From positions 50,294,086 through 50,358,085 of the forward strand of contig NC_091135.1 in NCBI RefSeq assembly GCF_041381155.1: a DNA stretch of 64,000 nucleotides, read 5' to 3'. The notes beneath the pieces were generated by a model. The model was not told where the DNA came from, ran no database searches, and worked only from the letters and a program-made list of their open reading frames with translations. Made by a program: the position numbers and the translations under genes. Positions 1,477-40,300 of this stretch are shown here, in pieces; the stretch's first letter is position 1, and each line of letters begins with the position of its first letter. The stretch comes from Argopecten irradians (lineage: Eukaryota > Mollusca > Bivalvia > Pectinida > Pectinidae).

Positions 1477-1827
1477 TTCTGTCCCCTGGCCGAGACACAC
1501 CAAAGTCTATAAAAGTGGTAGTTTCTGCTCCTGCTTAGCGTTCAGCATACAGGGAGTGGGACGACTGGTTCGCCCGTTGTCAGTATAATGTGACCGGGTG
1601 GGGTGTGTTGCTTGGTGTCTTCGGCGGCATGCTTCAGTGATATAGCACTATAAAAAGGGCAACAGTTCCACTATACAAGAAGACACAACACGAACATACC
1701 GCAGTCTCCCAGTACACTCACCTCGCACAACATACACGCAACACACCGCATACATGGGAGGCCGTCCTTACATGACCATAGCTGTTAATAGGACGTTAAT
1801 AAATCAAACAAAAACAAAAACAAACAA
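1477..1827 (+). mobile_element. SINE-like interspersed repeat with 9-bp target duplication
   Basis: A 351-bp unit, richer in GC than its surroundings, beginning at CTTTCTGTCCCCTGGCC and ending in an A/C-rich tail. It is flanked on both sides by GTTTAAACT (1468-1476 and 1828-1836), a 9-bp target-site duplication. I associate this sequence type with abundant bivalve repeats; that is recollection, not a search. The A-rich end and duplication suggest retroposition, so SINE-like is my best call, although a non-autonomous DNA element is possible. It sits at the junction of two direct repeats. Confidence 0.6.
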
Positions 1828-5578: not shown

Positions 5579-5720
5579 TCAATCATACACCTGCAGCTTT
5601 GTCACTCCTTGTATGCCTGGTATTTCTTTACATTCGAATGACACAAATATAGTCCCTGTACCTGACTTTTTCGCTGTCACTGGTACTGTCATGTGCCAGC
5701 GGCCATGAGGCTTTACGTTC
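5579..5720 (-). CDS. transglutaminase-like, exon 15 (last)
   Basis: Residues 756-802, second C-terminal barrel strand block ([20 protein letters not shown]), ending QVYD and TGA at 5579-5581. Acceptor TTTGTAG precedes it. I see no confident polyadenylation signal downstream. Confidence 0.88.
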
Positions 5721-8700
5721 CTACAAACAGAATACAGTTTCAACACAAATGACATAAATGAAAAACAAAGAATATGTGTGGTAAAGTATAGTCAGAAATG
5801 ACGAAGTTGGAATATTGTACACCAGTGTTTAATCGTTATAATTAACTTTGTACATAGCCCCCTTATTATGATAATGGAAGCTCAATCGGTGACAAGGGAA
5901 CGCTTGCAGGTGGATTAGCTATAGATTGTACACTCGGATCGACTTTACACTTTACAGAATGCAAATTTACACTAAATATAAATTGAAAATAAGATAATAA
6001 ACCAAAGTAAAGAAAATGAATAGAATAACGCACTATAGAAAAGAAAAGTATTTAAATGTGTAGATTTCAAATTGTCCACAAAAACCCGAAAACCCTCCGT
6101 AAGATGGTTATTTTGATGGTTTGAGAATAAGACTGGCACGGAGCGTACATGTTTGAATAAGAAATCTACCATCAACAATAATACAAATGTACTATATTAC
6201 ATGAACTATTTAAGGATGCTCCACCGCCGAAAGCGCATAAACAATATCTATCATTTGAACAATATCTGATTTTAATCGTGTGTATTCATGTATGTCTAAT
6301 TAACACAGAAATTTTAGCGTTCCATATACGGCATAGTGTCAGGGGTTTATTCAGGATGCAAATAATTATTTTAGATAATTTTATATTGAAGTGAAATAAG
6401 AAGCTCAAACTTTCCACTGATGGTAATAGTGTAAAATAAGTTACTTTTGCTACTGTAGTAAAAGACTAATTCATCTGCTTCTGTTTTTATTAGATAAAAA
6501 TGCCATTCGTCGGTGGTGTAGCATCTTTAAAAATCTTATAGGTATAAAATCATATATAAAAACAGTTTTAAGGTTCCTCATTGACCGGATTTGATTGGGC
6601 ATTGATTCGACACTACGTGATAACTCGTTTTACTTTTGTCGATGATTTACAATTTTCACACCTGTGATTTTATATGTAACCCCTAAAACCCCACTGGTTC
6701 CCAGATGATTAAGTAGACCGATATAATCTTTTTGTTGATGTCTGATATAGCATTCATTTTAAATATTTCAATGTAGGTATGAATAAGGTTTACGTTTAAG
6801 TACCATACCGGCGATTAAAACAGCGAAATACCACACAATGTTCAGTTACAATTTTGCAATGTCATTGAATACGTAAAATTAAAATCGGGTGAATTTATGA
6901 AAATCTAAAACGTCAAGATTTAGAAAAAGATAGGTGAAAGAAAGTTGCACGAGCGCATAACTACCCATCTGTAACATCTCTATCTTCTGCATAAATATAA
7001 TCAATAATGCGTTTATATAAGTGGTAATTACAGTCATATTGCCGCATTGATTACAGATTTAGACCGACAAAAAATACCTTCAAAATGTAACAACTAACTT
7101 ATTGATAATTGTAAATAAAATCGGCTGAAAATAACTACTCTGTGAAAATACATACGGCTGTGGTATGGGTGGAGGTGTTCCGAATAAGTTTCCTTCAATA
7201 GATACCACACAGAACGTCAACCACGTGTCATGGAACGGATTCCGAAGGATCAAATGAACATCTGTCGGCTCATCAACTTTACAGTGGCTCTGGGTCTGGA
7301 ATGTTTAATAAATATGGAGTTGGCGGTAAAATGTGCGATTTCTGATCGGGACCGGGCAAAAATCATCTCAATATGTAATAATATAATTGTCGTGTAGTGT
7401 AACAAAGGTATTTTAATAATGTGCGTGTAAATTAATAATTATACAATTTTGGTTCTTAATACCTACAGAAACATCCAGCTATAGCGAAGATATAACATGT
7501 GATGTAATCTTAACATGGGGAGATAACTCTGTCTAGACTTATGCGACTCGGTGAGATGTTAGTCTAGTTTTACAAATGCGCTTTTAACAATATGACCACG
7601 ATTTTGTGAAAAGACATTACAAGGATAATAAGTTTCACCTCATCTAATATGTATTGAAAGCGCATGATAGCAATAGAGTGGATTGCTAAAAATGGTAGGC
7701 GTAACTTATTTTTAATGCAGAATATTATTTTTTTGTTGTTGCACCCATTGTCATAGATTACAAGAACAACGTTTCCGCAGGAAATGGTAAAAATGTAATT
7801 GGCCAAATTCAACTACTGTCTAAGATATCAATGCGCCACAACCCAATTTGTTTTATTGTAAAATAAAATAACGCAGGAAAACTAATACCTAATATTAGTA
7901 CCTCACTGAGTTATTTAAATCAAATTGTAATCATTATTTGGGATAATGAAGTGGCGGTTTGTCTATGACTTATGAGACCCAAAGGATAATGAGAATAATG
8001 CTTAAATACACTTGAGTGATACTTCTAACATCGAACAGAAATCAAAATAGAATTAAACCATAGTAAGCTTATGAACTTGTCTATCAGAGAAACACGTGCC
8101 GAGTGTAGGAGGTGGGTGAGATAAGCTGGCAACTACTGAAAAAACTGGTGTGGAATGACAAGTGTCAATGTTGATATGTGTAGACACCCTTACAGTTCAT
8201 CCACCACTAGCCCCATAACAATGAGTCACTGTAAAACATTAAGTCTACTAACATTGTTTCTATGATATATTCTTTACTATGTTTAGATTTGTGATGCTGA
8301 CTTATCAATATTAATTTTAGCTGTTTCGCTCATTTTGGCATTCTTCAATGAAGCAGAGAACTATTAATGCAACTAACAATAAATACTCCAATGATACGAA
8401 ATTCCATTCTGCAACAACTATAATGTTAAACATTTACTTTAGTATCTTTAGTATATTTACACGGACTTACCTAGAAATAATAAAGACTTCAGTATATTTT
8501 CTTCTAATCAATACGATTATTGAGATGTAGTCCTTATCAAAAATACCTGTATGACAACAGTAGGAGGTGTAAGACTATAGTCCAGCGCGGCCACGGCAAT
8601 ATTACCGGTCTCTTTCACATTGGCAGTAGCTTCCACCTCAAATATCAAAAGTGGTTTCAGGCCGAGGTCGTAATCTGCCGGCGAAACCCGTAACTGGTAG

Positions 8701-11700
8701 CTCAGTACTAGAAACAGAACACACATAGAATTAGGGGTGATTTCTGACATTGACAATTAAAATATATACAGTCAATTTAGAAGAAAGAGTCAAAACATTG
8801 GCGATACACATACATGATTGATATCAAACCACTTATTCGCACTGTTAAATATAGCATAACATAATAAAGCTAAAAGCATTTAATCATCCTTGTATTCAAA
8901 CGTTAATACTGTCATCTTTTTTTAAAGGTTCTATATTTTTCTATATTTTGTAAGAAATATGTCATGAAATTTTGTAAGATAACACTACTTCCAGATCTTA
9001 TCCTTATTTGACATGAGACCTACAATGTATCATGTACTTGGACAATTGAAGATGAATAATTTCCTAGAACTGGACGAGTATTTAAGTACTGTGTGTAACG
9101 AATTACGTTACATAAAGTACTTGTCGAGGTCCGAGGATTGGTGTTTTCCTATATATACTCCTTACTATATGGGAAATAAATACAATGTGATACTAAACAA
9201 AATTTGAGTTGGATGTTTCCACTATACTAACCTTGCCTGCATTTCAGTTGAATATTTCCACTATACTCACCTTTCCTACATTTTAGTTGAATATTTCCAC
9301 TATACAAACCTTATCTGAATATTTCCAATATTACTAACTTTGTCTATATTTTAGTTGAAAAGTTCCAATATACTAACCTTGCCTACATTTTAGTTGAATA
9401 TTTCCACTATACAAACCTTATCTGAATATTTCCACTATTACTAACTTTGTCTATATTTTAGCTGAAAAGTTCCACTATACTAACCTTGTCTATATTTTAA
9501 TTGAATATTTCCACTATACTAACACTACATTGTATCTATGTTTTAGTTGAATATTCCATACTAAATTTATATATAATATAGTTGAATATTGATACTATAT
9601 ATATACTAACCTTGTCTATATTTTAATTGAATATTTCCACTCTACTAACCCTACTTTGTATCTATGTTTTAGTTGAATAATTCCTGCATAATAACCTTGC
9701 TTATATTTTAATTGAATATTTCCGCTATACTAACTCTACATTGTATCTATATTTAGTTGAATACTTTCTGCATACTAACCTTATCTATATTTAGTTGAAT
9801 ACTTCCTGCATACTAACCTTGCCTATATTTGAGATGAAGGCTACTGTACACAACCTTTTTGAGTGGCGTTACATCCCCACCAGTATATACGTGAGTTGTT
9901 ACCGTGATAACCAGATTACCAATGGTCAGTTCTTCATACTCCCGGCTGATATTGGTAACTTTAATTGTAAAATACACGTCGGAACCAACCATTTCTGACC
10001 GCTCTGACACAATATCCAGCACGATATCCTGAAGCACCGTGTCCAAACAATAATACAAAATATAGTTATACTTCACTATAAAGAATAAATGAAAATAGGT
10101 CAATATTTTCAACATTTTTTTATGATTTTATCTTAATGTTAGGCATTCAAAAATAAAAAAATATCCAAGGCTACTATCATGAAAGGAACGTTATCGCCAT
10201 ATTTTAAGTGTTCATTGAGACTATAACACAGAAATATATCAACATTCACCTGTTTTGCAACTTCGGCGGTCTCTGATTGGCGTTGTACCTTCATGCTACG
10301 TAAGGCGTTCCTCATCACGATCTCTGATTCTTCGCTGTCTGGTAGGACAGACCGTTATTAAACAGCAATTACCAGTAAAAGAAACCAATATCGTATCATA
10401 TAAACATTCCAGCTTTAGCTCATAACATGATTCCAGCTTTCAATCTTTTAGTTTCTCATAAAGAAGCTTAGTTTCCCAGGCGGCTAAGCTAGTCATTATG
10501 TATTTGCGATCCTTTTTTTGAAATAAATAATTATATTATTTGTTTTAGCTAGCGAAATTAAAACAGACACATTTGTGTCGATTTCCACGTTGACATGCAA
10601 TGAACAAACATATAGACCGAATGCTTCAAGAAAAAGATGAAGGAATTGAATTTGAGAAACAAAATTATCTCGTTTTGTCAACCTGGAAAATTAATAGATA
10701 TGACAAAATAACGGAATATGCACTCATTACCTTCCGGGTACTTGTAAAACTCCGTCAGATCATATCGGTTGGCTTCCGTGTCCTCCCCAGTGTATGGACG
10801 ACCGTCTGGGTATTTGGTACTGATCTTTTTTCCTGAACTAAACCGATTGAAATAGTATACGGAAGTTAAAGGAAAACCAGGAAAGGAGATGTTACATGGC
10901 CGCCCATGATCAATTTTAAAGTTTTGAGTACAAATGCATCAGTGTTTATTTCATGAATAAAGTATTCCCGCCCTTATGTACAGCGCTACCTTTTATCAGT
11001 TGTACTTCCGACTCCTACTTGTGTGTCTTTAATGTAACCTATATGTAACACTAAATCAATATAGTGAACAAATAAATATGACAAATTCAAATGTATAAAA
11101 ATTGTACATTGACGGTAAAGTTAAGTTCTAAAACAATACTTTGTATGTGTAATAACAAAGGCATTCTTGATAACCAAGGGCAAAACGTTTAATTTGAAAA
11201 AGAAACAAAAAATAATTGAAATGGAAGAAAATAACCTACATATTAGAATTTTCCTTGATTTTGACCCAGTTTACCCCGGCTCGTCTCTGCCAAATAGTTC
11301 TACCCGCATTCACTTCGGAGAAAACAAAGGCCGTGTCAAAAGCTATGTCACAGAGCCCTTTCCTCACGGCTGTCACTGGGGTAGGACCACACACGTATAT
11401 ATCTGTAAAGAATTATTGAGTCAACCACGGTATAACACGACCTAGTCGTGTGTACGTTCTTTTGGGGTGTGGGATTTTGATATAATTTCGTGCTTAGACG
11501 ATAGGGCAATAACGTATCGTTTTCTAAATCCAAGGTATCACAGCAAGTGGCCACACAACATACATTTGATGCTATACAGTACATTTCACTAGGTCTGAGA
11601 ACACATTTTGTATTGCTGTAAATAAATGCAGGTATAAGATTCAGCTTTTGACACGGCTTGCATTTATAGATTTGTATCTCTAGTGTGTCGTACTTTGAAA

Positions 11701-14700
11701 GTTTGGTATTTTCTTCACATTTCTTTTTTTCGCCTTCTATTTTCCTATCCTTAATAGTGTTATACTTTCCGAAAGGTAATGCACCAAATGGGACCATACC
11801 TTTCTAAAAACTACAATCACAACAGTCAAATCAATATCAAAAAAATGTTGTAATGTTACAGAATACAAAGAAACGTGCTTCTTACGTCCTGAAGGTTCTT
11901 GTGGAGTGGGGTCGAGAACCTGCCAGCCACTTAATTTGTCAGGTTTTTCTGGCAGGTCTGGTCTTTTCATCCATACCTCATTCCACACGTGGAAATCCCT
12001 GTCAAAGAGAAAAAAAAAATTGATTACTCTTTTTTTCATTCTGAAAACAAAACAAAATAGTATGGCAAACATTTTATACAATACATGTATACTTGTATAA
12101 ATTGAATTTGTCACTACAGGTCGTATTGCGATAATGTAAAATAATGTGTTCTTGCAATGGGCAAATACATGAGACACTTTTTTAAAACCGATCTTAAACC
12201 AATAATTGCCGTAGTAGGGTAACGAGCTCATTTGATACTCGTAACATACGGACATAGATATATCTTATCCTTATCATGCGGTAATATTTATAAAATAATT
12301 TTCTCTAATTGTTCCATTTTCCCAGTTGATAAATGATTCAGCTCGTCGCAATATTCTCTTATACAGTTAAGATTACTCCGGTGAACAACTGTTCTAGGAA
12401 ACTTATGGTAATGTTTCAAATAAGCCTGCTTTCGATAATAAATAACAGCTTGAAATACACGTAACAAAGAAAATGTACTTAATTCGGCGTAATAATATTT
12501 TCGAGCAAACTCTCACCACAGCGCATGTGTATCTACCACCTTCTCCACTCCGTTAAACGGGTCAATTGTGTAACCTTTGTCTATGGAAAGGTTCCGGTCG
12601 GGGTCATGTGCAGATACAAAGTTAGTGACACTTCGGCACGGCAGTCCAAGTGCCCTACAAACTAAATTGATGTAGACAGGATTAGGGATTTAACGTCCGA
12701 TGGTTACAAAAAGAAAGCTGTGCTGGTGTACCTTGGTTTGGACTATACTATAATTACAGATGTTTCAGTTATTGGAAAGTGGTGTAATAATTCAACTTTG
12801 CAGCGAAAGCAACCTGTTAATAAACACATTAAGAATATTTATATATCATTGGCTTGACAAAATATATTCGTATACGTGTTTTCTGTTGTCACTAACATAG
12901 AAATCGTCATGATCTCATCGTAGGAAGAGGAACAACTCTAGGTAGCCGTTACATACATTATATACGATACTTACCGGTAGTGTAGACCCCAGAAAACACC
13001 CATGGCTGTCCGTATTTGACAGGTAAACCGTTTTGTTCATTATACATCTTCAATATCCGTGGACTCCCTACCCATGCCGTCGGTCGAACACCGTCAGCAA
13101 AGGTCCCGCGGTACCTCCCAGTCATTACACCAGAACCATCTATATTGTTTATCTGGTATAAAAAGGATGGTACCATGGTTACTATTTTACATTGTAATGT
13201 CTACTTCGGTGGAAAGGTTACATTTTTGTATCGTTAGCTTTCTTAATCAAAATAAGGTGTTCTATAAAACTACGCAAATGATTTGTATAGGCCACGCGTA
13301 CTGCGAAACATACTGAAATCTGAAATACATGCTACATGTAGTAAAATGATATATTATCATATACTCTCGCTCTCAAAATATTAAAATATACGATCAAAAC
13401 AAAATTATATGATGTACGTATTACGAACGATACGACCACTGATCTCATTTGTAGGTTGTAAGGAATAGGAAATAGATGTGCTGCGGTAATAACATAATAG
13501 TCATGCCGAATCAGGTTGGCATCTTTATTTACTTTCTTAGAATTTCTACATTATCTTATATTACTGCCCAAAATATAAGCATTTTCGTTAATGTATCAAA
13601 CTTTAAAATTAAGGTTTCTTTCCGAAACAAGATTAAATATTGAAATCTGCTCACTGCTATGCTGTGCTATAATTATAAGTGTATGGGTTTAATTGTGTTT
13701 GAGAGTGAATAAATAAATGAACTAACAACTCTTGTTAAGGCTATTCCTATTTGTGTTTAGCCATTATAATCATGAGTCATTAACTGTCTAACATTGATGT
13801 TTATCTTAATATAACGGTTTACCACAAAGCTAATGAAAGTATAACGAATACTGTGGCACAAAACTGATGAAAGTAATACGAATACTGTGGCACAAAACTG
13901 ATGAAAGTAATACGAATACTGTGGCACAAAACTGATGAAAGTAATACGAATACTGTGGCACAAAACTGATGAAAGTAATACGAATATTGTGGCACAAAAC
14001 TGATGAAAGTAATACGAATACTGTGGCACAAAACTGATGAAAGTAATACGAATATTGTGGCACAAAACTGATGAAAGTAATACGAATATTGTGGCACAAA
14101 ACTGATGAAAGTAATACGAATATTGTGGCACAAAACTGATGAAAGTAATACGAATACTGTGGTACCAAACTGATAAATGTAATACGAATACTGTGGCAGC
14201 ACATTGCTAAATATAATACTAATGCTGTGGCACCAAACAGATAAAAGTTATAAGACTACTGTGGCAAAAAACTGATAAAAATAATACGAATACTGTGACA
14301 CAAAATTGATACAAGTAATGCGAACACAGAGGCATCAAACTAGTAATACAAAGCTGTAAGCTGTAGTACCAAACTGGTAACAGTAATATGAAAACTGTAG
14401 TACCAAACTGGTAACAGTAATACAAAGCTGTAGTACCATACTGGTAACAGTAATACAGGTTGTAAGCTGTAGTACCAAAACTGGTAACAGTAATACGAAA
14501 GCTGTAGTACAAACTGTTAACAGTAATACGAAAGTTGTAGTGCCAAACTGTTAACAGTAATACTAAAGCTGTAGTACCAAACTGTTAACTGTAATACAAA
14601 GCTGTAGTACCAAACTGGTAACAGTAATACAAAGCTGTAGTACCAAACTGGTAACAGTAATACGAAAGCTGTAGTACCAAACTGGTAACAGTAATACAAA

Positions 14701-17700
14701 GCTGTAGTACCAAACTGGTAACAGTAATACAAAGCTGTGGTACCAAACTGGTAACAGTAATACAAAGCTGTGGTACCAAACTGGTAACAGTAATACAAAG
14801 CTGTGGTACCATACTGGTAACAGTAATACAGACTGTAAGCTGTAGTACCAAAACTGGTAACAGTAATACAAAGCTGTAGTACCAAACTGGTAACAGTAAT
14901 ACAAAGCTGTGGTACCAAACTGGTAACAGAAATACAAAGCTGTAGTACCAAACTGGTAACAGTAATACAAAGCTGTAGTACCAAACTGGTAACAGTAATA
15001 CAAAGCTGTAGTACCATACTGGTAACAGTAATACAGGTTGTAAGCTGTAGTACCAAAACTGGTAACAGTAATACGAAAGCTGTAGTACAAACTGTTAACA
15101 GTAATACGAAAGTTGTAGTGCCAAACCGTTAACAGTAATACTAAAGCTGTAGTACCAAACTGTTAACTGTAATACAAAGCTGTAGTACCAAACTGTTAAC
15201 AGTAATACAAAGCTGTAGTACCAAACTGTTAACAGTAATACACAGCTGTAGTACCAAACTGGTAACAGTAATACAAAGCTGTATTACCAAACTGGTAACA
15301 GTAATACAAAGCTGTAGTACCAAACTGGTAACAGTAATACGAAAGCTGTAGTACCAAACTGGTAACAGTAATACTAAGGCTGTAGTACCAAACTGTTAAC
15401 AGTAATACAAAGCTGTATTACCATACTGGTAACAGTAATACAAAGCTGTATTACCAAACTGGTAACAGTAATACAAAGCTGTAGTACCAAACTGGTAACG
15501 GTAATACAAAGCTGTAGTACCAAACTGGTAACAGTAATACGAAGGCTGTTGTACCAAACTGGTTACAGTCATACAAAGCTGTAATACCAAACTGGTAACA
15601 GTAAAACGAAACCTGTAGTACCAAACTGGTAACAGTAATACGAAAGCTGTTGTACCAAATTGGTAACAGTAATACATAGCTGTATTACCAAACTGGTAAC
15701 AGTAATACAAAGCTGTGGTACCAAACTGGTAACAGTAATACAAAGCTGTATTACCAAACTGGTAACAGTAATACAAAGCTGTAGTACCAAACTGGTAACA
15801 GTAATACGAAAGCTGTTGTACCAAACTGGTAACGGTAATACAAAGCTGTAGTACCAAACTGGAAACGGTAATACGAAAGCTGTAGCATCACAACGATAAA
15901 AGATGCGAAATGTTAAGTATATAAAATGTAACTGATATATGAAGATAAAATGTACCTGATAATTAAATATGCTCCACTAATGACAAACAGAAGCAGACTG
16001 CTTATATTACATCATTACCATCATTGAAAAGTTTAAGCTTTTAATTTTACTTCAAGATAACAAGACTAAAAATAAATTATTGCGTCCCGAAAAACCATGT
16101 TCAATATGGAATGAAGTACTGATTGCGCATGCACCAAAAGCAAAATAAATTGGTTCTTTTTGTGTTAATTATACATATATATACACAATTTAACAACAAT
16201 TATTGGTCAAATAATAAGTATCGTTAATGCTCTGTCGGCGATTGAGTGTCTTTAATTCAATATGAAAACGATAAAGTTGACTAATCATTTTGTCATCTCA
16301 TTACCAAAGTCTCCATATAAATGATTGGATTAAAGTGTCCGATAATGTTTTTCAATTTTTTTTACTTCAGTAAAATAAATGGCAGTTTAAATATTGTTTT
16401 TTAATTTGCGTAGAAAGAGACTTCTTATTAAATCATTAACGTCAGGTATCATTATTTGCAAAATATATATAACATGTATTACAAACTTTGCAATGAAACT
16501 TTTAAAAGCAGAATAGAGCAAAAAAAAACCAGTTAACGAATACAAAGTTACGGTGAAAAAGTCGATACACTTTGTTTTTGATAACAATGCTGCAAAACTT
16601 ATATCATGGTAAAATTCCTAATGGTGGATGAAATTCGCTGAAACGACTCAGAAACCCGCAATATGTGCAAATATTCTTTGTTCGGTAAAATCAGTTCAAT
16701 GTCAGATGGATGCGATACCTAGCCCCACTTGTTACTTACCACTTTAGTGAGGCCCCTTGACACCAATACGGGATCAGACAACTGACTCGTCACCTCAAAG
16801 TTAAAGGCCTTCCTCAGTAAATGAAGACTTATTTTCAAAACGTCCTCATCAAACTGAAAAATTCAATTTTTACTTGAAGGAAAATAAATTTGCTCTTATT
16901 GATCTTTTTTGTTACATCTTAAACACAGAATGTTGATGAATCCATATTATTGGTGATGTTTAGTTTTGTCGCTCTTTTCTATCGCTAGATAGGTAACGGA
17001 ACACCCGTCGACAGTTCAACGGAACACTGATGTCTGACATATACATTCCCGTTGGGATTACTGGTTTTGGTGCATGGCAATGAAACAAGGAAAACAATGC
17101 TAACTACAACTAGAACACTGGCACGCCGGAAGGTGCCCCGCTCAATGTGCCTTACTATTAGAAAAGTAACATTTGACAATGAAAATTCATAGTTGAAGAT
17201 ATGACTTGAAAATGACTGATGGCAGTATTACAAGAAATCCGGTCGTAATGGAATCTACTAATAAAATTTGAGAAATATACCTTCAGCACTTTCTGAGAAA
17301 TAGCGGTAGAAATTTTAAACTTTCAAATTCCAAAATGCATCCCTGGCGGCCATCTTGTTGACCAATCGATCCCAAAATGCAATATGCACAATTAGGGTTC
17401 TAGGGGAACCTACATATGAAATTTGAGACAGATCCTTTTAGTACTTTCTGAGAAATAGTGGTAAAAAGAAAAACGGACAGACACGCGGACGAACTGACAA
17501 ACTGATTACTATAGGGCACCTGCATCTCGATGCCGGCCCAAATGAACATGCATGCAGAGGAAAACAATTTAGATAATAGATATAAGTGATTAGCCAATCC
17601 CCCAGAGAATGCATAGATATCACAACTGTATAAGTTACGTAAAGTACGTTCAGGCACATACCTGTCCATAGTTCCATGGTTTGGCCACGATTTTGTCTTC

Positions 17701-20700
17701 CCTCCCCATGAAAACAATTCCACAATCATTAAGACCGTACTCATCAATAGGTTCAGTGCGACCTCTCACTCCAGCTTCCGGACAGAGAACTCTGTCTATG
17801 TATACCTGATCAGCTGTCATGGAAACCAAGCATCGTCATAAACGGTTAGACGAAAAATAGACATATTAACATCCACGACAAGGGATACAAAGATCCATAT
17901 AACTGAAAACCGTTTCTCTGAAATGTTCAACTCATCCGAAAGTAACAAATATTTAATGTAAATAAGGGTAAAGTTTGATACGTTTAAGATCGGATGAAAT
18001 ATCAAACACTAGATGGCACAGACATGGAATGTCGTAATTATAAATCATTTCTTCCTACCAAACTAAGATTAAAATTAGTTAACTACTTCATTTTTCTACA
18101 TGCCTTGAGTGGGGGATTGAGAAGGTCACACCAATTAACACGACATGAGATAAATCAAGCGGTTCTTGTTGGACAATCAATCGTATACTGCTAATTAGTT
18201 GGGTTGTGTAATAGAACAAGGTTGGCGATAAAGCGATGTCCTATCAGCAGGCAATAGATAATATCTAAGCTTCATAAAAATGTCCGGCAGTTATACTGTC
18301 GATAAAAAGAAGAATTTATGCTACAGTAATTTTGATGTAACAATAAATTGATAGCTTTTATAACTAGCTCTCCTCTCGAAATGTCTTACTAAGGACAATA
18401 TGTGACAGCTTCCTATCATTGCCTGATTTAAACATCAGTCGCCATATAATGGTCTGTTTTGTAATTAAACTCTAATGAAAGTGTAGCTCTTGTATTAAAT
18501 AAAGAGTAGCACAGCCCAGAGTATTCGCCTTGATGTTGCGCAAACTTCAATTAGTTTATTAAATAGAATGCTTAAGAATACAATAAGCAGCAGCGCAAAT
18601 GAAAAAATACATCGAAAAATTTAGTTCCCCACGCAATGGTTCTTGAGAAAAAGTAAAAGTAAAACGTACCAGGATTCCAAGGATTGAACAGTATGATGAT
18701 ATCCCCAGGGTATTCATATCTCAGCTCTCGTTTAGCAGGTACGTAAATCCCAAGTGTTGTCGAAAATATACTGAGCACCCACTCGCCAATCGTGCAATTA
18801 GGGGGCGTGGTCACCTCGAGTACCATGGACTTGTTGGATGACCTGATGACGTACATTCGCCAGCCATGTTTCTTCCGGAGTCTGTCGTACTCATCCTTTA
18901 CATCTAGTAAAACCCACGTACCGTCCGCAGGATTCGGTCGGTCACTTCCTATTGAAAATGAAATAGCAATATCACCATAAACAACCGATATTGTAAGAGG
19001 AGTTTCATAAACATTATTTTATCGGGTTGTGTCGACTTTCCTGTTTCCTTTTTGTTTTATTTAACAGAAAGTAAAACTGGAGTTACTTTTTTTATTTGTA
19101 AAATTACGTTGTAGCATTTTTGATATAGTACACTGCTATCAAAATATCCAAAATTGGTTTGGAAGCATTCTTTTCAACATTTACATTTCAATTACATTGC
19201 AATATCATAGCAGGGATTAGAGAAGGGAATTATATCATTTTTGTAGTGCTTTTCATTGTGTCTATGGACATGATCACAGGGGAAATGGAGACATAAGGAT
19301 TACTGTCCTAGATTACACAACCACCAAGCAGTGGATTCCTGGATGATCTGGCGATCACGGAAACAACCGATGTACAGCCATGGTGGATTCGCCCTCCATC
19401 AATAGTAGTCAACCTTATAAAGTGTTTTAAGAAATAGTACGATGACAGTTTGAAGGACTCCAACAAAAACGGAAAAATAAAGCAGCATATTTGTAAAGGA
19501 CTGAGAAATATCGACAAGAAATATCTACTAGGAAAGGACTACATTACTGCCGCGGCTATCCTGACCACAGACAATACTTGCGATACCCTTATTAAAGTTG
19601 TATGGTCTATAACTTTTGTCATAGTGAAAACTGTTTTAAGTGTTATACACATTTTTTTTCTCCGTCTGTATGAGGTTTAAACTTCCCAATTTTACCACTT
19701 TTTATAAAAAAAAGTAAAAAAATCTGTTTAACGTGTACACGTGAAAATAGGCTCAAAAGATGCAGAATCATTCCGAATCATTCTGAACTCTTCCGAACAT
19801 TGCCGTGACAATCTTGAATTAACACGAGAGTTGTTAAACCAAGAGTAAATGTCAACAATTTTTCATTAACAAAACATGACATCGACCTCAGCAGAGTGGA
19901 TCTACAAAGAAAATAATGCTCACATATAACGATATTTGATACACACAATATTTACGGCAATGTGTGAATTGAATGTTTTAAATACTCATTCTGTGGACAT
20001 ATACCAACATGATTTGCTCATATTAGCCAGAAGGAAACGTTAATTTGCGTACAAAACACGTGTGCGCTTACACTAGTTACCAGCTGGCTCACCACGTGCA
20101 GGCCGTGCATGTCGACGTCAGTCATGTGATACGGTTCAGAATCCGACAAAACTCGAAGTCACTGAACATGGCGGTAATTGAAGGTGCTTTATTCAAAATC
20201 AGGAATATATTAAGGGAGCTAACTCATCAAGTTACATGTCAATGTTCAAATATCAATAGATTTAAGCGACATATCGTTACAGTGAAATTAGCATGAAATG
20301 TAACTTTATCATGGAGGGACTGGACAGAAGAATAAATATCTCAGGAAATGGTACGGCAGAGGTAGAAAAGAACAGACTACACCACAACGTAAGGGCATCG
20401 TTGGAACAGTCTGCATAAAAAAGACATAGGTTGGGATTAGATTCGGTTAGGTTGAACCAGATAAAAAATGCTAATGCTTAGAGAAAATAGTAAGCTCATA
20501 GCTCAACAGAAAATTAGACAAAAAGAAGAGGCCAGGAGGGTGGGTGCAGTGGGGATGGGGAGTCTACGAATACGGTGGAAAAACAACAGAAGAGATCAGA
20601 AATACCAACCATGGCAGCTCAAGTTCATTCTGAGAGCAGTCTATGATGTACTTCAAACCATGACCAATATGTGAGAGATGGAGATTCGTGAAAGACCAAA

Positions 20701-22100
20701 CATACCAGCAGTGTGATAAGGACGGAAGCTAGAGGCCCATAATTTATCCATGTGAATTCTGCCTCGAGGTCGATACTCATGGAGACATGACTAGGCGTTC
20801 AGGCAGCGTGCAGACACTCGACAAAAGAAAGGAAAATATAATGGTAATGGTGGAACTGGCTGAGCTCTGGAAAACAAGATGTCAATCGGCGCACGAGTGT
20901 TAATTGCCACGACAATGTATACTGGGTTGACGAAAGAATATGGAAGGGTTGGAAGGCATGTAACTTCCCTGCAAGGTAGGCTGTCGATGATTTTCTAGCC
21001 AGTCATGCTGGAAGATGTTTGGAGCCCTCGGTATCACAGGGACGACAAGGAAGACTGTCGTTTGAGAGTTAGGGAAGGGGGCAGATAGGAGAGAGCATCC
21101 CGCTGGCTGTGGATGCGCAGAGGCACAGCGTAGCTGGAAGCCAATCGTAAGAGAGGTGGGGACTGATTACCACTACTGACCCACTACCACGAAGAGTGCC
21201 AGGACTAGGATTGAAACCCTCGACGATGAAGGGATCTGGCTGACAATTAGAACGGTTCAGCTGCATTATCAACAGCAGTATTACGGTGCAATATCAATTA
21301 CTGTTTGTTTTACTTTATTTACCATAAAGACAATGCATAACCGATGACTGAAATTGTAACTCAGTTTCATCAAATTGAAGTCTTCATTAGATTGCCAACT
21401 CCATTCCCTGGGATTTGACTTCACCAAGACCAGAAATACGTGACCTTGACCGATAGCCTAATGTAAATTTTATATAACTGTGTGTATTACCTGTAGAGAA
21501 ACTTAACTGTAGGTCATGTTTCCCCCTGTTGAACGTTTCATTGAGACTCACAGCAACAAGGAACGGTTTACCACGCCTTACAATCAGATCAGGTTCATTG
21601 GAACTCTCCTGTCTCAGAATGAATCTGTCTGTATGGTGTTCCTCTGAAGCTCGATCTAGATACAGCTCCACGCCTGTCACACACAAGTTGTTCTCAAGGT
21701 CTCTTTCACGGGCCTTGTCCTCGAACGGTCTGGGATCTGTCAGAAAAAAACCCACCAGTGATATTATTTATTATACATGTAACAATATAAACATAATTCC
21801 AAAACCCTCTACACTGTCAATTTTATGTTCAGAAGGTAATATATGTTATAAATGAAAGTGTAGTAAATGATTGAAGCTCATTGATAATAATATATCATAC
21901 ATACGCCCCCGTCTCGTGAGACGCAAGTCCCTTTCCCATGGATATTCTTTCGTTCTTTCCGGGCCGTAACGTAGGGAGTTCAGGCGGATCTTCGGAGACG
22001 TCCGTGGGGTTATGTCTGAAGGAGGCATATCTGGCCATCGGAAACCCAAGTCCTCTTTCCTGAAAGGTCGTACTTTCTTTCCCCTCAGCTCGTGAGAGTT
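5579..22100 (-). CDS. transglutaminase-like protein, catalytic Cys replaced by Pro (15 exons)
   Basis: Transglutaminases cross-link proteins between Gln and Lys side chains in a Ca2+-dependent, Cys-based reaction. Exons run right to left: 22100-21905, 21736-21491, 18948-18670, 17813-17662, 16853-16740, 13152-12975, 12661-12517, 11998-11886, 11402-11240, 10837-10731, 10338-10250, 10028-9845, 8707-8547, 7295-7156, 5720-5579. They total 2,409 nt, a whole number of codons with every junction in phase, giving 802 residues plus stop. Domain order: an N-terminal extension, as in annulin-type enzymes (1-65); transglutaminase N domain (about 66-240); catalytic core (about 241-590); two C-terminal beta-barrels (about 595-802). 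Core motifs match the family ([37 protein letters not shown]). The active site reads [10 protein letters not shown] where YGQCWVFA is expected, with Pro at residue 379. The first exon with the initiator is not identified. This is most likely a non-enzymatic scaffold, as in vertebrate band 4.2. Confidence 0.93.
5721..7155 (-). other. transglutaminase intron 14
   Basis: Contains the TIR element at 6210-6530. The remainder is AT-rich with no further structure that I can see. Confidence 0.6.
6210..6530. mobile_element. MITE family A, copy 1
   Basis: Terminal inverted repeats of the form TTAAAGATGCTCCACCGCCG bound a 321-bp non-coding unit. Internal sequence is shared with copies near 15963, 49289 and 50203. 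Orientation matches the 49289 copy and is opposite to the 50203 copy. Confidence 0.8.
7156..7295 (-). CDS. transglutaminase-like, exon 14
   Basis: Residues 710-755, including [14 protein letters not shown], which matches the family pattern of a strand followed by NP at the start of the last barrel. Acceptor ATTCCAG, donor GTATGT. Confidence 0.88.
7296..8546 (-). other. transglutaminase intron 13
   Basis: AT-rich, with no repeat, exon or RNA gene visible. Confidence 0.5.
8547..8707 (-). CDS. transglutaminase-like, exon 13
   Basis: Residues 656-709, including [20 protein letters not shown], which corresponds to the end of the first barrel in transglutaminases. Acceptor TTTCTAG, donor GTATTT. 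Confidence 0.88.
9207..9835. repeat. intronic tandem repeat, about 39-45 bp unit
   Basis: Roughly 14-15 imperfect copies of TTGAATATTTCCACTATACT followed by AACCTTGCCTATATTTTAG, with unit-length variation. It lies in transglutaminase intron 12 and stops just short of exon 12. Confidence 0.85.
9845..10028 (-). CDS. transglutaminase-like, exon 12
   Basis: Residues 595-655, first C-terminal barrel ([20 protein letters not shown]). The acceptor GTGCTTCAG is good. The 3' end is the least certain boundary in the gene: ending before GTAGCC keeps phase 1 and the expected length, and ending at an upstream GTGGGG is also in phase. Confidence 0.82.
10250..10338 (-). CDS. transglutaminase-like, exon 11
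   Basis: Residues 565-594, the charged linker between core and barrels ([20 protein letters not shown]), matching the family pattern after YKYPEG. Donor GTGAAT. Confidence 0.85.
10731..10837 (-). CDS. transglutaminase-like, exon 10
   Basis: Residues 529-564, [17 protein letters not shown] through FYKYPE, a strongly conserved core segment. Of two nearby acceptors, GTTTAG gives the correct phase and the closer TTCAG does not. Confidence 0.9.
11240..11402 (-). CDS. transglutaminase-like, exon 9
   Basis: Residues 475-528. It holds [20 protein letters not shown] and [10 protein letters not shown], standard transglutaminase core motifs that follow the catalytic Asp segment. Confidence 0.92.
11886..11998 (-). 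CDS. transglutaminase-like, exon 8 (catalytic His and Asp)
   Basis: Residues 437-474. [15 protein letters not shown] contains the triad His (codon 11989-11991), and [11 protein letters not shown] contains the triad Asp (codon 11911-11913). Both are kept even though the Cys is lost. The Trp just before DFH (TGM2 W332 position) is rebuilt across the splice junction. Confidence 0.95.
12517..12661 (-). CDS. transglutaminase-like, exon 7
   Basis: Residues 389-436, [19 protein letters not shown], the helix and strand after the nucleophile. The acceptor CAATTTAG at 12662 restores phase. The closer TTGTAG would shift the frame. Confidence 0.93.
12975..13152 (-). CDS. transglutaminase-like, exon 6 (nucleophile segment, Cys to Pro)
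   Basis: Residues 330-388. The nucleophile motif reads [15 protein letters not shown]. The codon at 13003-13005 is CCA (Pro) where TGC or TGT (Cys) is invariant in active family members. Upstream, GVMTGRYRG places Tyr343 where TGM2 has Trp241. Acceptor TATACCAG, donor GTAAGT. Confidence 0.95.
13826..15893. repeat. 2 kb minisatellite, 33/34-bp units, two subfamilies
   Basis: About 60 head-to-tail units in transglutaminase intron 5. Left block (about 13826-14210): GTGGCACAAAACTGATGAAA followed by GTAATACGAATACT, 34 bp, around 11 copies, very homogeneous. Right block (about 14330-15893): GTAGTACCAAACTGGTAACA followed by GTAATACAAAGCT, 33 bp with some 34-bp variants, about 45 copies. A longer pattern is duplicated inside the right block (14440-14590 resembles 15030-15180). 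Because 33 bp is a multiple of three, long artefactual minus-strand frames appear. They are not genes. Confidence 0.97.
15963..16255. mobile_element. MITE family A, degraded copy 2
   Basis: It ends in ATGCTCTGTCGGCGATTGAG and its left end is eroded (ATGCTCCACTAATGACA). The interior matches the 50203 copy, in the same orientation. Confidence 0.65.
16740..16853 (-). CDS. transglutaminase-like, exon 5
   Basis: Residues 292-329, [17 protein letters not shown] and [18 protein letters not shown], the core segment before the nucleophile exon. Acceptor TTTTCAG, donor GTAAGT, phase 0 on both sides. Confidence 0.9.
17221..17545. repeat. interspersed repeat with internal duplication
   Basis: Two related blocks (17264-17315 and 17418-17466), each with AAATTTGAGA then ACTTTCTGAGAAATAG, followed by an ACGGACAGACACGCGGACGA stretch and CTATAGGGCACCTGCATCTC. 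The composition resembles bivalve repeats that I recall. It lies in transglutaminase intron 4 and its class is unknown. Confidence 0.5.
17662..17813 (-). CDS. transglutaminase-like, exon 4
   Basis: Residues 241-291. [15 protein letters not shown] and [15 protein letters not shown] then KPWNYGQ open the catalytic core and match family consensus closely. Confidence 0.95.
18670..18948 (-). CDS. transglutaminase-like, exon 3
   Basis: Residues 148-240, second half of the N domain: [15 protein letters not shown], then [11 protein letters not shown], the hallmark end of the N-terminal beta-sandwich. Confidence 0.95.
18949..21490 (-). other. transglutaminase intron 2
   Basis: About 2.5 kb. The stretch 18949-20330 is ordinary AT-rich sequence. 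The stretch 20340-21290 is a distinct, more GC-rich block listed separately. I see no exon that would fit the phase. Confidence 0.6.
20340..21290. repeat. GC-richer unclassified degenerate block
   Basis: About 950 bp clearly richer in G and C than the flanks, with purine-rich plus strand and protein-like fragments but no long frame. It looks like the remnant of a foreign or repeated element. The family is not recognised. Confidence 0.35.
21491..21736 (-). CDS. transglutaminase-like, exon 2
   Basis: Residues 66-147, start of the transglutaminase N domain: [20 protein letters not shown], then [19 protein letters not shown], the typical RRGQPF-like signature. Donor GTAATA. Confidence 0.95.
21905..22100 (-). 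CDS. transglutaminase-like, first recognised exon
   Basis: Residues 1-65 of the partial model, a basic and proline-rich extension ([20 protein letters not shown]) ahead of the N domain. The acceptor TTGTCCAG shows that at least one exon lies upstream. A speculative starter is the ATG-TAT pair immediately before GTAAGT at 23357, which would be in phase. Confidence 0.8.
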
Positions 22101-37300: not shown

Positions 37301-40300
37301 CCCAGTTTAATATTCTAGAGATTGATGGCTGATCTAGATCTAGTGTTAAATGCTCTTGTGAGGAAGGGATGTCGGAGATTAGCTATACAATTCTCAAACA
37401 ACTTTTATCACACAACTGGCATATTAAGTCATATCATACGCCCATGTCATAAATATTGTAACACACACGTGTAATAACACCATTGTAACATCACTGATAA
37501 TTATGAGGTCAGTATCAAAATATGACATTGGACGATTGTCTCAGTAGACGAAAACTTCAAATCTAAGCCGGATTTTTACTGTTTTATGTGGAGACGAAAG
37601 TAATTGATGAAATTTAATGTTTTTCTTAAATTTCTATTTACAAAAGTTATGTGATTAATAAAATCTTATACTCTTGACTATGTGTTATTAAAATCAAACT
37701 CGTTAAATGATTTGATATATATGTCACTTACCTTAAAGCTCATGGCATATCAAATTATTGAACTTGTTTGATAGATTTGATGATTTATTTATCAGATGAA
37801 ATTGGAGTGTTGGAGAGTGTGAAGGCCGCCAGTGAGATTTATACACCAGTATCTGGTACTGTTGTCTCAAATAATAAAGCCGTGGAGGAGGATCCAACGC
37901 TGGTCAACACCTCCTGTTATGATAAAGGTAAGCTCTCCCCGCCCTGGTCAACACCTCCTGTTATGATAAAGGTAAGCTCTCTCCACCCTGGTCAACACCT
38001 GATATGATAAAGGTAAGCTCTCCCCTGCCTGGTCAACACCTGATATGATAAAGGTAAGCTCTCCCAACCCTGGTCAACACCTCCTGTTAGATAAAGGTAA
38101 GCTCTCCCAACCCTGGTCAACACCTCCTGTTATGATAAAGGTAAGCTCTCCCGGCCCACCCTGGTCAACACCTGATATGATAAGGGTATGTAAGCTCCCC
38201 CCTGTGACCCCACCCTGGTCAACACCTGATATGATAAAGGTAAGCTTTCCAACCCAGGTCAACACCTCCTCTTATGACAGGTAAGCTCTCCCACTTTGGT
38301 CAACACCTCCTGTTATGACAAAGGTAAGCCTTCATATATACGCGAGTTGTTCTGGTATATGTTAAGGAAAAGTTTGCCCTGATTTATTCCTTGATAAAAC
38401 TGGATAAATGATAAGGCCAAATTAAAAAATATTCTTGTTTCTCGTAACACTATTTAAAAATGAAGGATCACTACGTAGGTGGAATTTTTTTTTTTTGGGG
38501 GGGGGGGGGAATATTTTTTCTCTTCATCTCAGGTTCTTGAAGTGAAAAACTGAAATAGACTTTATTAAAACTCATATAAACCATGGATATGATTCCCAGG
38601 GGATTATTGGTATCTTAAATTTACAGAATTTATGCCAAAATTCCTGATTTTGTGCAAAACCAAACAAAAATTACAGTGAAATGCGTTCAAGCGTCCGGAA
38701 TTGCCTTTGGGATCGTTCAAACCACAAATCACGTGAATAGTTTCAACCAGTCGTATGCGCGTTTATCGGCTCGGAATAGCGTCAGTCAAACTGTGGGCGG
38801 AGTTTAGTAACAGCGATAGTCTAACTGAGGGCAGAGTTCACCTGTTATAGTTGTTACACATTCAAAAACTTACGCAATTTCAATCATTAATACCGCAACA
38901 ATTTGGTATACAAAATCGTAAAATAGAAGCAGAATTACATGCATGTATATAATCATGATCTACATGTACATATAGCCATAGTCACAGCTAGGTTAAAGTG
39001 AGTAGAAATTTGGTATTTGGTATCTTAACTTTACAATACTACATGTATCTTATTTGAAATCACAGGAGCCAGAGAGTCGTTACAAATGTACTTTATACAT
39101 GTACATATATACATGTATATATATGCATTCCAAACGTCAAATTATGCTTTCTTGAACTACAATAAGAGTGTTTTTAGCACAACTTATCATAGGTTTGAAT
39201 ACATATTTACAAGCACACTTTTAAACATCACTATTACAATTCATACAGCTAGCAATGCATAATTAGTGGTGAGATGTCTTCTTCCGGATGAAACATCTTC
39301 ATTAGGCCAAAAAAAGTCTGTTTAGGGTTACCCGACCGACCCTATTTTTTGTACCTAAAAGGATACTCCTATTAATAGTTTAACTCTATGCCAATCTGAG
39401 CTGTTACATGCAATACTTCTTTCTTAGTCAAATCTCCAATTATTCATATTGTTAAATAAAGAGTCAAGAGTGAAAGACACTAATGTTTAATCATTTTATT
39501 AATAAATAGGAGCCACATGTGTTTAGTAAACAGCTCGCTATTGCATCTGAACTTGACAAAAAATATTTATATAAAAAGAATCCCTACCTACCGGCCGTAT
39601 TTTTTTTTGCCAATGTAACCCTAAACAGATATATTTTGGTCTTATACATGTATACAATGTATACAGCTACAACCGTGTATGTTCCAGGGAACGTTTTACG
39701 AAGCTGTCAAGATATAGTGTTGTTGTCTTTGATGATCATATATGGTACGATTGACTTAAAAACATGTTTGAAACCTTTTTATCTAGAAATGTATGCTAAC
39801 AAATCTTTGGTACAAAGATGTGACCGAGTCAAATCGGTAGATCCCTTTGAAGTCAACATTGTTTGCGCTACACCACATGGAGTCTAACCAATCGAGGCAA
39901 CTTTCCAGAGTTTTCATTGGCTGTCGTTACAGAATATTACAACATTTAAGGGAGGAGTCTAATCCGGACGCTTGAACGCAGTTCACTGTAAGTTGTTATT
40001 TGTTTGCTTGAGGACAAAACTGAAAAAAAGTTTTTGAGTAGGTGCTGATTTTATAGGGTCAGTCGGGTTACCGGAAACACGAATAATTTTTTTGTATGGC
40101 CTTATGGATTTGTCCCTAAATTTGGTGTGTTGGGCATGTGGAAGGATTTGTAGGGATGAGTATACGTACCGTAAGATTTGCATCATGTTTGTCTATTGTC
40201 TTGACATTACATGTTTTGCTATACAAGTATCTCATATACTACAAGTTTATCGTTAGAAGGTCGAGTATTTGTCTTTAAATTCTATCTTTAGACAGGTTAC

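Follow-up and report, generated by a model that had tools for sequence, protein, structure and literature searches.

An Intact Transglutaminase Gene on the Minus Strand

The window, a 64-kb stretch of DNA (G000:C2:50294086-50358085), lies within the 73-Mb contig C2 of an 846-Mb genome and carries on its minus strand a gene whose predicted N and core domains and near full-length similarity place it in the animal transglutaminase family. Fifteen exons, found by six-frame reading together with splice sites, join between window positions 22100 and 5579 into 2430 nt (Table 1), and the resulting frame of 809 codons has a single, terminal stop and no internal one. Since exon borders were placed at AG and GT, the GT...AG form of the 14 introns is in part a product of that choice; the E14/E15 border, picked among close alternatives, is the least certain. 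No in-frame Met precedes residue 25, and E1 opens at an AG, which makes the choice of start codon tentative: translation possibly begins at residue 25, or an upstream exon exists beyond E1. With borders chosen in this way, the earlier description of 15 intact exons in phase holds.

Residues 97-807 of the predicted protein (711 residues) align colinearly with human TGM3 (1l9m; phmmer E 1.1e-95), and the protein matches 18 distinct PDB sequences, 17 of them transglutaminases and the other protein 4.2. Pfam searches detected Transglut_N (6.4e-23) and Transglut_core (9.2e-11), while homology of the C-terminal part comes from the phmmer alignment, with no Pfam match. The DxDxNxS cluster, which we take to be Ca site 3 of TGM3, is present as in TGM3. 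Elsewhere in the window, one of the nine neighboring ORFs tested had a Pfam match; an ORF on the plus strand matches the glycine cleavage H-protein (PF01597, E 5e-16), and short repeats (PPWSTP...) make up the ORF stretches that come after it.

Table 1. Features of the window and of related loci (window positions unless a locus is given)
Feature	Position	Strand	Remarks
E1	21905..22100	-	First identified exon; N-terminal extension; Met at residue 25 may be the start, unless an upstream exon supplies it
E2	21491..21736	-	Transglut_N domain
E3	18670..18948	-	Transglut_N domain and linker
E4	17662..17813	-	Core
E5	16740..16853	-	Core
E6	12975..13152	-	Active-site exon; Trp241 replaced by Tyr, Cys277 by Pro
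Codon CCA (Pro)	13003..13005	-	Nucleophile position
E7	12517..12661	-	SAHD (His305) and Trp332 retained
E8	11886..11998	-	His335, Asp358, Thr360, Glu363 retained; Asp at Asn333
E9	11240..11402	-	Core
E10	10731..10837	-	Core
E11	10250..10338	-	After core
E12	9818..10028	-	C-terminal part; 3' end inside minisatellite
E13	8547..8707	-	C-terminal part
E14	7152..7295	-	C-terminal part; 3' border uncertain
E15	5579..5710	-	Last exon, stop codon; 5' border uncertain
Exon-12 array	9202-9838		38-39 bp x 16
Intron-5 array	13823-15885		33/34-bp units
H-protein ORF and repeats	37762-38281	+	PF01597
Paralog donor-site array	L018:1642-3186
Paralog donor-site array	L064:1664-2760
Paralog donor-site array	L046:1662-3186
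Paralog donor-site array	L059:1610-1855
Paralog donor-site array	L058:1553-3117
Paralog donor-site array	L056:1562-3048
Paralog donor-site array	L062:1576-1961
Frame-shifted active-site exon	L064, near 1640-1680		C13:36.546 Mb
Frame-shifted active-site exon	L076		C682:39550-39950

Predicted Loss of the Nucleophile and of Both Oxyanion Donors

The active-site exon, E6, is bounded by the acceptor ...ttttataccag and the donor gtaagtatc, and coincides exactly with the interval singled out in the sequence-only reading. Its translation of 59 residues retrieved 17 transglutaminase sequences by phmmer (E 2e-11 to 4.4e-10) along with 2 chance matches, and the catalytic position is Cys in all three transglutaminase alignments listed for that search. 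The position of the catalytic Cys (Cys277 in TG2 numbering, used throughout) is occupied by Pro, encoded by CCA at 13005-13003 in an otherwise intact exon, as had been noted; as also noted, passing from TGY to CCA takes three base changes. A further substitution in E6 had gone unnoticed: position 241, that of the oxyanion-hole residue Trp241, is Tyr, a two-base change.

The rest of the active site is largely preserved. His305, Trp332, His335, Asp358, Thr360, and Glu363 are retained, and Asn333 is replaced by Asp, a change shared with paralog H, the other 11 of 13 exon-8 sequences having Asn. Thus, relative to TGM3, factor XIII A, and TG2, the window gene has the same His, Asp, Trp332, and Thr360, but differs by Pro for Cys277, Tyr for Trp241, and Asp for Asn333.

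Proline has no backbone NH and offers neither a thiol nor a hydroxyl. According to one source, the oxyanion donors are Trp241 and the backbone nitrogen of Cys277 (PMC9139979); another names Trp241 as an oxyanion-hole residue and describes the triad as well conserved among active human members, with Trp241, Trp332, and Thr360 strictly conserved (PMC13073648). Since Trp241 is Tyr and the Pro at position 277 lacks an NH, both donors would be lost along with the nucleophile, all within one exon. Measured against the features of an active transglutaminase, the protein lacks the catalytic Cys and Trp241, and has His335, Asp358, Trp332, and Thr360. The proposal that the protein is non-enzymatic is thereby strengthened, as the loss of Trp241 adds to that of Cys277 in the predicted sequence.

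A nucleotide-binding role, offered earlier as an alternative to a structural one, found no support. The GTP-site residues of TG2, which we take to be Arg476, Arg478, Val479, Met483, and Arg580, correspond in a hand alignment of a weakly conserved region to Asp, Val, Ser, Glu, and Leu, with no basic residue among them. A structural role is plausible.

Paralogs in the Same Genome

Searching the genome at the protein level and with Pfam, which scored only the best candidates, so that the family may be larger, revealed further transglutaminase loci, most of them on C2 (at 30.5, 46.36, 46.41, 46.44, 50.88, 51.03, 51.12, 55.6, 65.75, and 70.46 Mb) and the others on C13 (36.55 and 36.63 Mb), C15 (9.49 Mb), and the small contig C682. 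The comparison omitted loci L073-L075 as well as 5 of the 13 Transglut_core matches in the genome (three on C10, one on C11, and one on C3), which may belong to other transglutaminase-like families. We denote the genes compared by letters. All 12 other active-site exons that were read have Cys, and all 12 have Trp at position 241; two of these exons (gene D on C13 and C682) contain frame shifts, and for them the reading switched frame. The C682 sequence closely resembles gene F and has several indels, reflecting either sequence errors or a decaying copy. Two loci look partial: M (C2:50.88 Mb) has only exons 8 and 9 recognizable in 8 kb, with 5.8 kb preceding exon 8, and N (C2:70.46 Mb) has none of exons 6-8 recognizable in 9.5 kb. 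Paralog G (L031, C2:65.752 Mb) has Phe in place of Trp278, the residue after the catalytic Cys (GQCFVF).

An LG+G4 tree of exons 6-8 (13 genes and 147 columns, with no vertebrate sequence, exon 6 missing for D, exon 8 alone for M, and N left out) places the window gene, which has the longest branch, as sister to I, J, and M with a moderate ultrafast bootstrap of 90. I (C2:51.11-51.13 Mb), J (C2:51.02-51.04 Mb), and fragment M lie 0.6-0.8 Mb from the window gene on the same chromosome-size contig; I and J, the nearest in the tree together with M, carry Cys and Trp, unlike the window gene. Over exons 6-8 the window gene shares 47-54% identity with the other genes (71% with M, across 34 residues), and despite the grouping, I (48%) and J (47%) are at the low end of this range.

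Purifying Selection and the Time Since Cysteine Loss

The codon alignment spans exons 6-8 only, amounting to 143 codons of the window gene; it left out the frame-shifted exon 6 of D, C682, and N; D is represented by exons 7-8, M by exon 8 alone. In a branch codon model, omega = 1 was rejected for the window branch (2ΔlnL 13.9, P = 1.9e-4), and the rejection persisted with branch lengths capped at 5 (2ΔlnL 11.5, P = 7e-4), with another topology (2ΔlnL 17.1, P = 4e-5), and without codons 241 and 277 and gappy columns (2ΔlnL 10.1, P = 1.5e-3), all these P values being rough since synonymous sites are saturated. Allowing the branch an omega of its own was no improvement on the background value of 0.12 (two-ratio vs. 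one-ratio model, 2ΔlnL 2.1, P = 0.15), giving no sign of relaxed selection; as the branch length is at its bound of 40, the omega value itself is unusable, and only the rejection of omega = 1 is to be used. The earlier description of the role as conserved therefore stands as far as purifying selection on the window branch in exons 6-8, a branch that includes time before the Cys was lost, the times before and after the loss not being separable.

The codons themselves bear on what followed the loss. While the codon specified Cys, its third base could not turn to A, as TGA is a stop, so that further substitutions came after the loss. Of random substitutions in the coding sequence, 4.1% create a stop. 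Were the gene unconstrained, two more specified changes, with splice sites and frame still intact, would have a joint probability of 2.5e-6 at best if indels are left aside, or 3.8e-7 if they occur one tenth as often as substitutions, figures that assume independent single-base changes, which multi-base mutation or gene conversion would escape, and that have no constrained-case counterpart. Unconstrained decay fits the window gene poorly, and none of the signs of a pseudogene (stops, frame shifts, lost splice sites, or neutral codon evolution) is seen in it.

A Probable Pseudo-Transglutaminase

We consider it probable that the window gene is an intact, full-length, maintained pseudo-transglutaminase, that is, a catalytically dead paralog kept as a binding or scaffold protein. 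The predicted protein would retain the sequence features of the fold and have lost the chemistry: with no thiol, no backbone NH at that residue, and no Trp indole, neither transamidation nor deamidation should be possible. It would then stay folded and act through binding, serving as a scaffold or, toward active relatives, as a competitor or partner that yields no product, a function suggested by the presence of band 4.2 in the family and of nearby relatives with intact active sites.

The main alternative is that the gene was inactivated recently and is turning into a pseudogene, its frame still open only for want of time. Loci that look damaged or partial do occur in the family (the frame shift in exon 6 of D, the two exons of M, and N without exons 6-8), the selection test spans the time both before and after the Cys loss, and the persistence of His335 and Asp358 is compatible with such a history, as the retained His, Asp, Trp332, and Thr360 would also fit a recent loss. 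Yet further substitutions followed that loss, as the A at the third codon base indicates, with the joint probability under independent single-base changes as low as given above when indels are disregarded, and Trp241 was changed too, by two bases; we therefore regard recent inactivation as unlikely.

The other explanations have far less to recommend them. At least one contig of the assembly, C682, is indeed error-prone or damaged, having frame shifts in what is nearly a copy of gene F, but an assembly or sequencing artefact at the CCA codon would have had to produce three clean changes there and two in the Trp codon with no indel and with flanks and frame intact, in a window that lies in a 73-Mb contig. 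The Pro-codon pattern occurs once genome-wide, and a protein search found no near-identical second E6; no second haplotype copy is thus seen, the next-best exon-6 match being 53% identical. The earlier judgment that a sequencing error is unlikely, with three changes in one codon and intact flanks, was reasonable, and we think an artefact very improbable. An unusual active enzyme, using another nucleophile or catalyzing another reaction, would account for the retention of His335, Asp358, Trp332, Thr360, His305, and Glu363, but proline has neither thiol nor hydroxyl to supply, and the two oxyanion donors described in the literature are gone, which makes this option hardly credible. A Cys-bearing isoform produced from an alternative active-site exon is scarcely to be expected: three motif patterns matched only the Pro exon in six frames of the 64-kb window, whereas a nearby alternative exon with YGQCWVF had been named as grounds for abandoning the claim.

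A maintained, catalytically dead paralog has a known parallel in band 4.2 (EPB42), which is likewise a transglutaminase relative without a working active site, which presumably has Ala at the catalytic Cys position, and whose structure 7tvz is a homologous match here (E 2e-47). We considered whether the window gene is an EPB42 ortholog; this is not supported, protein 4.2 being the weakest of the 18 PDB matches (E 2e-47 vs. 1.1e-95 for TGM3). In the literature, band 4.2 is described as lacking the triad and Trp241 (PMC13073648), and EPB42 as a tetrapod gene whose catalytic residues and activity were lost in distinct lineages (PMC11152450). The window gene, by comparison, keeps His335 and Asp358. 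Given the far better score to TGM3, the grouping with paralogs of its own genome (in a tree without vertebrate sequences), and the tetrapod distribution of EPB42, the sequences suggest that catalysis was lost independently in the window gene. It is tempting, if speculative, to see in it an invertebrate counterpart of band 4.2 that evolved independently, a dedicated pseudo-transglutaminase holding or blocking the substrates of its active neighbors and so, for instance, restraining cross-linking in clotting or in shell or adhesive secretion.

Loss of catalysis in this family is already known from EPB42; the present case appears independent and differs in the residues concerned. Among the matches listed in a literature search, which most subscription papers lay outside, there was no Cys-less transglutaminase from an invertebrate. 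An independent invertebrate case that lacks the nucleophile and both oxyanion donors yet keeps the rest of the triad would make it possible to test which non-catalytic functions suffice to preserve the fold, and would provide a naturally inactive enzyme alongside relatives in the same genome whose active sites are intact.

Minisatellites Over Splice Donors

Eight minisatellite arrays in the transglutaminase genes have a unit that comprises the 3' end of an exon and its splice donor; seven were found in a scan of 20 exon loci, and three of the eight reach the end of the locus scanned, so that their extent is at least that given. Four are at exon 6, in genes A (53 bp x 29), D (41 x 27), F (41 x 37), and K (77 x 3), and three at exon 8, in D (69 x 23), F (69 x 22), and B (64 x 6), while the one at exon 12 belongs to the window gene. 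The donor within the unit is GTAAGT in six of the eight arrays and GTAAAC and GTTAGT in the other two. That donor sites of a single gene family have been amplified again and again seems unusual, and splicing could be affected. A separate 2-kb array fills much of intron 5 of the window gene, ahead of the active-site exon.
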